64,000 bases of DNA from Thermococcus sp. 18S1 (GTDB taxonomy: Archaea; Methanobacteriota_B; Thermococci; Thermococcales; Thermococcaceae). Positions 33,956 through 34,909 of the stretch are shown here, piece by piece; the stretch's first letter is position 1; every line of letters starts with the position of its first letter. A program made the translations under genes and the position numbers. Location: positions 248,001-312,000 of the forward strand of contig NZ_SNUU01000001.1 in the NCBI RefSeq assembly GCF_012027645.1, in the 5' to 3' direction. Below the pieces are notes generated by a model, which was not told the DNA's origin, searched no databases, and saw only the letters and a list, made by a program, of their open reading frames with translations.

Positions 33956-34011
33956 GGCGATGAGGATCCTCACGATAGCTGAAGGGTGACGAGGGGCATA
34001 CTGGCCGAGCC
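33956..34011 (+). ncRNA. candidate C/D box sRNA 1
   Basis: Terminal stem GGC (33956-33958) with GCC (34009-34011). C box GCGATGA 33957-33963, 15-base guide, D' box CTGA 33979-33982, three-base gap, C' box GTGACGA 33986-33992, 12-base guide, D box CCGA 34005-34008. The D box and C' box deviate by one base each from consensus. Archaeal C/D sRNAs with fibrillarin, Nop5 and L7Ae direct 2'-O-methylation; targets not identified. Confidence 0.5.
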
Positions 34012-34015
34012 GCTA

Positions 34016-34025
34016 GGCTTTTAAC
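34016..34025 (+). promoter_or_regulatory. TATA element of candidate sRNA 2
   Basis: GGCTTTTAAC, about 26 bases before the first base of the terminal stem of the sRNA at 34047, correct spacing for its own promoter. Confidence 0.45.
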
Positions 34026-34046
34026 TCCTCCTAAAAAAGATTGAAC

Positions 34047-34118
34047 GAGCGATGAAGACCTCTAGGGTATCTGAGACTGCGCCCCGCGCGGTGGTGATGA
34101 TGGTCAAAGCCTGAGCTC
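34047..34118 (+). ncRNA. candidate C/D box sRNA 2
   Basis: Terminal stem GAGC (34047-34050) with GCTC (34115-34118). C box GCGATGA 34049-34055, 15-base guide, D' CTGA 34071-34074, C' GTGATGA 34094-34100 (consensus), ten-base guide, D CTGA 34111-34114 (consensus). The D'-C' gap of 19 bases is longer than usual and G+C rich. A TATA element at 34016-34025 is well placed. Its 3' end touches the stop codon of the convergent gene. Confidence 0.55.
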
Positions 34119-34458
34119 ACTCCTCTTCCATCTCCTCGATTTCCTCGAGGATCTCCTCGAACTTCTTGAAGTCCTCCGTCTTAGCGAGCAGTGTGACGAA
34201 CTCGTCTATCTCCTTCTTCTCGAGGAAGGCTCCAGCGAGGAGCTTGCCGGTGTAGCGGTTGTTCTTTATCTCCCAGAACATGTAGAACTCGGGGAAGTTC
34301 TCCTTTATCTTCCTGTAGGCGACACCGTACTTCGAATCCTTAAGGGGGTTCTGCTCAAGGTAGAAATGGCCCGGCTCAAGCTCGATCATGTGCAGAACAG
34401 CGCCCCTTTTCGTCTTTACGAGTTTTACCCTCACGTCCCACTCCTTGAGAGCCTTCAT
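34117..34458 (-). CDS. conserved hypothetical protein, acidic
   Basis: 113 residues with an acidic C-terminus (EEILEEIEEMEEE). The middle (GHFYLEQNPLKDSKYGVAYRKIKENFPEFYMFWEIKNN) suggests a small alpha/beta fold. ATG 34458 is the first start after a GGTG-like site; the frame is open to 34518. Next to gcvH on the same strand, 46 bp apart. No family recognised. Confidence 0.68.
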   Translation of the reverse strand: MKALKEWDVRVKLVKTKRGAVLHMIELEPGHFYLEQNPLKDSKYGVAYRKIKENFPEFYMFWEIKNNRYTGKLLAGAFLEKKEIDEFVTLLAKTEDFKKFEEILEEIEEMEEE

Positions 34459-34504
34459 GACCAAACACCAGAGGGAATAGAGTAGAAAAGTATTAAAGCC
34501 TTGC

Positions 34505-34909
34505 TCAGAGGCTCTCAAGGTACTCGGCGTAGGCCTTGGCGTCCATAAGCTCCTTGAGCTCCTCGTCGAGGTTGCTCGGCTTGAGCTTGACTATCCAGTT
34601 CTCGTAGGGGTCCTCGTTGATGAGCTCCGGGCTGTCCTCGAGCTCCTCGTTGACCTCAGCGACCTCGCCGCTGACCGGGGCATAGACCTCGGAAACGGCC
34701 TTGACGCTCTCAAGCTCACAGAGAACGTCGCCCTTGCTGAGCTCGGAACCGACGTCCGGAAGCTCGACGTATGCCAGGTCGCCGAGCTCCTTCTGGGCGT
34801 AGTCGCTTATTCCTATGAGAACCGTCCCGTCCTCAAGAACCTGAACCCACTCGTGGTCCTTCGTGTAGTAAAGGCCATCCTTAACCCTGTATTCTCCGAC
34901 TTCAATCAT
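34505..34909 (-). CDS. gcvH: glycine cleavage system H protein
   Basis: 134 residues. LYYTKDHEWVQVL is the H-protein start, and LCELESVKAVSEVYAPVSG holds the lipoyl lysine (ESVKA). It shuttles the aminomethyl group among P, T and L proteins. ATG 34909 follows GGTGATG; a further in-frame ATG six bases upstream lies within that site. The other glycine cleavage genes are not here. Isolated H proteins in archaea may also serve in lipoate metabolism. Confidence 0.93.
   Translation of the reverse strand: MIEVGEYRVKDGLYYTKDHEWVQVLEDGTVLIGISDYAQKELGDLAYVELPDVGSELSKGDVLCELESVKAVSEVYAPVSGEVAEVNEELEDSPELINEDPYENWIVKLKPSNLDEELKELMDAKAYAEYLESL

Follow-up and report, generated by a model that had tools for sequence, protein, structure and literature searches.

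One question raised by the intergenic DNA downstream of gltA in this Thermococcus genome is what kind of RNA, if any, it encodes, and what role might be played by a G+C-rich hairpin lodged amidst its box elements. The DNA analysed here, henceforth the window, is a stretch of 64,000 nucleotides taken from a 1.99-Mb genome, in which it occupies positions 248001-312000 of contig 1. A preliminary description made from its letters had read at this place a candidate C/D sRNA with its own promoter, the end of which overlaps that of a convergent gene. Our analysis confirms the observation and supports the interpretation: all elements of a C/D sRNA are present in the window, in the order C, D', C' and D, and the gene very probably makes a box C/D guide sRNA that methylates 23S C2536 via its D' half, with a hairpin supplying a helix between D' and C'. 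At the level of sequence, the box set, the conserved TATA-like element and the family-wide guide are evident, and RNA evidence comes from the ortholog in T. kodakarensis. The features of the locus are:

34047-34118, plus strand: box C/D sRNA of 72 nt, ortholog of T. kodakarensis sR38
34047-34050, plus strand: 5' strand of the closing stem, GAGC, pairing with GCTC at 34115-34118
34052-34058, plus strand: C box AUGAAGA (ATGAAGA in DNA), one departure from RUGAUGA
34059-34070, plus strand: D' guide of 12 nt, CCUCUAGGGUAU, predicted target 23S C2536 (E. coli 2441)
34071-34074, plus strand: D' box CUGA, exact
34075-34093, plus strand: D'-C' spacer of 19 nt, GACUGCGCCCCGCGCGGUG, with a 6-bp G+C hairpin, CUGCGC CCC GCGCGG
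34094-34100, plus strand: C' box GUGAUGA, an exact RUGAUGA
34101-34110, plus strand: D guide of 10 nt, UGGUCAAAGC, with no convincing target
34111-34114, plus strand: D box CUGA, exact
34115-34118, plus strand: 3' strand of the closing stem, GCUC, its last two bases inside the stop codon of the convergent gene
34018-34024, plus strand: TATA-like promoter element CTTTTAA, its hexamer conserved at the same distance
34117-34518, minus strand: convergent gene for a DUF7132 protein (open reading frame as listed; PF23476, 4.2e-54 for the 113-aa form)
33956-34010, plus strand: neighbouring C/D sRNA sR51 (RF01305), 59 bits against a gathering threshold of 38

Elements of the sRNA and their conservation

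When set beside the archaeal box forms (RUGAUGA for C and C', CUGA for D and D'), the RNA shows a single departure, which lies in the C box, and the form of this box across the Thermococcaceae is AUGANGA. The C' and D boxes had been called consensus from the outset, and both are exact (GTGATGA and CTGA in DNA). The four-base closing stem (GAGC/GCTC) seen in the preliminary description forms a terminal stem of 4 bp flanking C and D. A start near 34046 and a length of about 70 bases had also been proposed; the length agrees with the 72 nt found here, and the predicted start, 34047, lies one base off. Archaeal C/D guides span 10-12 nt (PMC7994747), and the two guides of this RNA measure 12 nt (D') and 10 nt (D). 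The region between D' and C' departs from the short loop (k-loop) form, as it is a 19-nt spacer with a hairpin; the k-loop is not a strict expectation, because k-turn forms are admitted for archaea (PMC8413462).

To trace the RNA among its relatives, 94 Thermococcaceae genomes were searched with a pattern comprised of the C box, D' guide and D' box, allowing one mismatch. This module was recovered in 90 of the 94 and in all 74 complete genomes (completeness of 90% or more, contamination of 5% or less); the four genomes without it (G061, G082, G083 and G085) are all at most 82% complete, and the reversed pattern gave no match in any of the 94. Each genome has one match apart from G051, whose two matches both lie close to contig ends. 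The counts of 80 given below are based on those genomes, among 85 first fetched, that yielded a full parse of the sRNA. Omitted from them are G003, G009 and G012, with no C' and D in the form expected by the parser, G010 and G061, where the stretch contained no core, and nine genomes outside the first set (G004-G008, G011, G082, G083 and G085); seven of these fourteen (G004-G008, G010 and G011) were added later and read together with G009 and G012.

Among the 80, pairs 1 and 2 of the closing stem are unchanged throughout, pair 3 is A-U in 61, G-C in 14 and G-U in 5, an exchange of A-U for G-C that argues for the stem, and pair 4 is non-standard in 19. The D guide is 10 nt long in 75 of 80. Position 5 of the C box and position 2 of the D box seem to covary (A/U in 30, C/C in 29, C/U in 7 and C/G in 5 of 80); we take these two to be the 3b-3n position of the terminal k-turn. 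The claim of a separate promoter is supported by a TATA-like hexamer found in 63 of 80 genomes with its start 33 to 28 nt upstream of the GCG that stands ahead of the C-box AUGA; in 25 control windows of the same width, such a hexamer occurs in 0-12 of 79-80 genomes.

The sRNA stands in tandem with sR51, which is 36 nt upstream on the same strand, and gltA (TIGR01316) lies upstream of both. An sR51-like stretch, with up to 6 mismatches, is found no more than 170 nt upstream of the sRNA in 46 of 80 genomes. At its other end, as had been noted, the RNA runs into a convergent gene, two of its bases falling in the stop codon of the minus-strand open reading frame that begins at 34117, and an internal ATG of this frame gives the 113-aa form. 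A convergent open reading frame of at least 60 codons stops no more than 7 nt past the D box in 47 of 80 genomes. Such an overlap is ordinary, since the primary transcriptome of T. kodakarensis is reported to contain 17 potential antisense snoRNAs, 16 of them over the 3' ends of genes (PMC4247193).

Beyond the family, the guide was also encountered in C/D-like settings on Altiarchaeota and other archaeal contigs (L098, L099, L106 and L114). Matches to it in Deltaproteobacteria and Erwinia (L101 and L109) look like chance. A contig filed as Thermotogota (L107:837) carries a hairpin-bearing copy of the sRNA with Thermococcus-like flanks, and is probably misbinned.

Expression of the ortholog and known relatives

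Table 1 of PMC9014305 (Liu et al. 2022), which deals with circular RNAs, lists T. kodakarensis sR38 without an alias at 1167276-1167338 (+/- 5 nt), with a length of 63 nt. It gives 11,287 aligned and 106 circular reads for the wild type, and 4,940 aligned and no circular reads for the knockout of the RNA ligase Rnl, on which the circles of sR38 depend according to that paper. In G024, taken as T. kodakarensis, the minus-strand slice at these coordinates begins GAGCGATGACGAGCTCTAGGGTATCTGA and ends CCGAGCTCACTT; in other words, they cut out a copy of the studied sRNA, starting at its GAGC stem. Because the sR38 coordinates coincide with this copy, the ortholog is a known, expressed and circularised RNA. 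The preliminary description had named the absence of an RNA of this size and start as the finding that would count against it, and for the ortholog, the sequenced sR38 supplies the RNA. The two RNAs share the C box type, the D' guide core CUCUAGGGUAU and the GAGC/GCUC stem, whereas sR38 differs from the studied sRNA in having a 6-nt D'-C' spacer without a hairpin, a CCGA D box and an A-rich D guide.

Outside one genus, discussed below, no Rfam family scored over its cut-off at the sRNA in the nine loci tested. The best score at the window site belongs to sR14 (RF01145), which reaches 19.6 bits via the boxes (32.6 in L013); this lies below the cut-off of 38, the guides differ, and sR14 is not an ortholog. 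The families sR1, snoPyro_CD, sR44 and sR3 were likewise rejected as identities, being below cut-off at the sRNA in both the window and L013. This lack of an Rfam family over cut-off, and a whole-RNA folding energy no better than that of shuffled sequences (z -0.09), would be expected had the boxes come together by chance in intergenic space, but the presence of the module in nearly all genomes and the reads for the T. kodakarensis ortholog, for which such an origin is refuted, render it scarcely credible.

The D' guide, its predicted 23S target and the D guide

When compared with the rRNA of the same genome, the D' guide has its best target at 23S C2536, with residues numbered from the first base of the Rfam match. 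The equivalent E. coli residue 2441 is a U, and the catalytic A2451 follows ten residues further along the sequence. Guide positions 2-11 pair with 23S 2533-2542, UACCCUGGGG, in a duplex of 10 bp that includes two G-U pairs and has a pair at N+5. The complementarity of the lone guide is not significant, as 480 of 2000 shuffled guides match some rRNA site just as well, but that of the set of natural variants is: all 11 that were scored, which stem from kindred genomes and do not count as independent events, reach at least 9.0 at the C2536 site, and just 1 of 300 column-permuted guide sets attains the same mean there. The scored variants were drawn from the Thermococcaceae and the archaeal loci L099 and L106, and 3 of the 11 have no pair at position 11; two of the 13 variants in all (GCTCTAGGGTAT and TCTCTAGGGTAT, differing solely at position 12) stand outside the scored set.

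The pattern of change along the guide is consistent with this target. In all 80 genomes guide positions 1-7 are invariant, although position 1 is mismatched to the 23S target, and position 5 is a G opposite C; positions 8 and 10 change solely from U to C, opposite G, in a search that allowed one mismatch. On the rRNA side, the 65 genomes in which the 27-nt 23S site was matched all have the same letters there, and 29 of the 94 genomes, 13 of them complete, gave no match to this pattern. Taken together with the box structure, these results suggest a mechanism in which L7Ae, Nop5 and fibrillarin would assemble on the sRNA, the D' guide would pair through positions 2-11 with the 23S segment, and the 2'-OH of C2536 would be methylated. 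They also speak for a guide, shared by the whole family, to a site near the ribosome's catalytic centre. A methylation datum for 23S C2536 was not found in the literature searched; RiboMeth-seq data for P. furiosus exist (GSE153501), and according to PMC7758197 they are to be reported elsewhere.

The chance-level match of the lone guide also fits another reading, wherein the main task of the C/D sRNA would be to assist rRNA folding as a chaperone, or would concern some other RNA, with methylation of C2536 secondary or absent. Chaperone roles have been proposed for some C/D sRNAs (Dennis et al. 2015), and some archaeal guides are described as having no rRNA or tRNA targets (PMC4644070). Furthermore, in the window's own genome the pre-16S leader contains a site, 300 nt ahead of 16S, with a mean score of 9.32, against 9.41 for the 23S site. 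However, a leader site near -300 is present in just 3 of 13 genomes, including the own, and was dropped as a target for want of conservation, whereas the 23S site shows no difference among the 65 genomes in which it was matched and lies opposite the unvarying G of position 5; we hence consider the chaperone role improbable and methylation of C2536 the preferred account. A search for the perfect complement of the guide, ATACCCTAGAG, in the genome offered no further candidate, its sole match being the antisense of the sRNA gene itself.

The same guide reappears in another genus (g3 in our set), where it lies on the D side of a C/D sRNA in all nine genomes (L153-L159, L085 and L086). The copies match RF00095 (snoPyro_CD), six of the nine over cut-off and three below, and we infer from these matches that the genus is Pyrococcus. 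Like the studied sRNA, this RF00095 member has the same rRNA guide, in the form CCUAGGGUAU or CCCAGGGUAU, before a CUGA box; unlike it, it bears the guide on the D side rather than at D', and has another second guide. The partner guide fits 23S 2485 with a mean of 9.50 (the next best site being 23S 480, at 8.75), 51 nt from C2536, so this sRNA is predicted to be a double guide over one 23S region. The guide has, as a separate observation, changed sides between genera, being on the D side in the inferred Pyrococcus.

The D guides of the 80 sRNAs fall into three classes: 1) class A, with GGUCA or GGUUA, in 33, which share a D-guide core and all have CUGA as their D box. 2) Class B, the rest, mostly A-rich, in 39, with a CUGA D box in 6 and another D box in 33. 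3) Class C, with CCAAGGG or CCAAAGG, in 8, with a CUGA D box in 1. A scan of rRNA and tRNA found no shared target for the class A or the class B guides. The best tRNA means, 5.89 for class A and 7.38 for class C, fall on the strand opposite the tRNA genes and are unconvincing, in a scan of 44 tRNA places with 10-nt flanks on both strands in which intron-bearing tRNAs may be missing. As these classes have no convincing target, the D half seems to be under weak constraint or particular to a lineage, and in the proposed mechanism it would be a weak or lineage-specific guide. The class A core GGUCAAAG (34101-34110) also occurs in two tRNA genes, on their sense strand, perhaps by chance.

The hairpin between D' and C'

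The type of RNA, its ortholog and its overlap with a gene end were already known; the unusual part is a recurrent hairpin. The preliminary description had remarked on the 19-base gap between D' and C' and its possible G+C hairpin, and this stem of 6 bp indeed covaries among relatives. Of the 80 genomes, 49 have a spacer of 3-7 nt, 5 one of 11-14 nt and 26 one of 15-24 nt, the cut of 15 nt for a long spacer having been picked after the lengths were known, and all 26 long spacers fold into a hairpin of at least 4 bp. In an alignment of these (26 rows, 22 of them distinct), 87.8% of the cells pair, as against 79.8% in shuffles, and alignments slid out of register paired in 17.5 to 57.0% of cells. 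Fifteen cells are changed on both sides, as against 5.6 in shuffles, with none of 500 having as many, in counts that include related genomes and can be swollen by kinship. The support for covariation comes from these cell counts, because neither the number of pairs with a double change (128 of 500) nor that of pair types (480 of 500) is above shuffles. The row of L018 is visibly misaligned and that of L008 has a bulge. As regards stability, which is weak for some single spacers, 20 of 500 shuffles are as stable as the spacer of the window's own genome; for others of the 26 the number rises to as many as 65 of 500 (G034).

In archaea, the form of the internal C'/D' motif, k-loop or k-turn, is described as being set by the loop or helix that flanks the kink (PMC8413462). 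The studied sRNA differs from that picture in having the helix in some and not in other orthologs of one RNA. A hairpin of 4 to 6 bp replaces the short D'-C' loop in the own species and about a third of the parsed relatives. It most likely provides a helix in place of the k-loop, such that C'/D' would fold in a k-turn-like manner with the guide lengths untouched. A regular k-turn is not certain, because the stem is often not flush with the boxes, being set off by a bulged base or an AAAA linker, and for the same reason a freely hanging hairpin or a neutral insertion stay real alternatives.

A neutral insertion, in a tolerant D'-C' loop and perhaps owing to decay of the D half, has an appreciable though minor probability in our estimation. 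It accords with the range of spacer lengths, from 3 to 24 nt, and with the D boxes other than CUGA in 33 of 39 class B sRNAs. On a tree of the DUF7132 gene, the hairpin requires 7 gains or losses, at least 4 of them forced by strong branches, a history that also fits an insertion without consequence; this tree, which is short (300 columns) and weakly supported, covers 44 of the 80 genomes and 13 of the 26 bearing the hairpin, and leaves 18 of its 41 inner branches open. A tree of gltA was dropped, the gene being in 36 of 62 loci and at usable length in 19. Against neutrality, all 26 spacers of 15 nt or more have kept a stem, with compensatory changes, and the hairpin is not restricted to sRNAs with an altered D half: it is present in 11 of 33 class A sRNAs, with their CUGA D box and shared D-guide core, as well as in 8 of 39 of class B and 7 of 8 of class C. 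In addition, a long-spacer pattern (11-26 nt) run over 26 genomes of the genus matched nine places, all of them the studied sRNA and no other C/D sRNA, in a search that requires a CUGAGC end and is blind to other C/D RNAs. A helix supplied to the C'/D' motif is accordingly the role that we prefer.

A more far-reaching proposal, which we put forward tentatively and hold to be rather doubtful as a whole, is that one guide RNA repeatedly gains and loses a covarying D'-C' hairpin, unlike the other C/D sRNAs of the genus, and that the hairpin would convert a k-loop into a k-turn, allowing a one-armed guide, with D' intact and its D half decaying, to keep assembling and methylating near the peptidyl-transferase centre. 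If true, this would be a series of naturally occurring switches between k-loop and k-turn within one orthologous RNA. No description of a recurrent hairpin in one orthologous archaeal sRNA was found in the literature searched, whose coverage of the k-loop was partial. The genomes furnish a natural experiment on the C'/D' loop, as the same two guides occur with the hairpin (G000 and G034) and without it (G017, with a 3-nt spacer).

In the own genome, 12 C/D-like matches were found, with spacers of 2-7 nt except for the studied sRNA and two others. These two, with spacers of more than 10 nt, are located at G000:C1:860241-860289 and 1526604-1526651. Outside the Thermococcaceae, the guide also occurs at an Altiarchaeota locus (L098:709), where the D'-C' spacer is 20 nt long and forms a 4-bp hairpin (-2.0 kcal/mol) that may have arisen separately.
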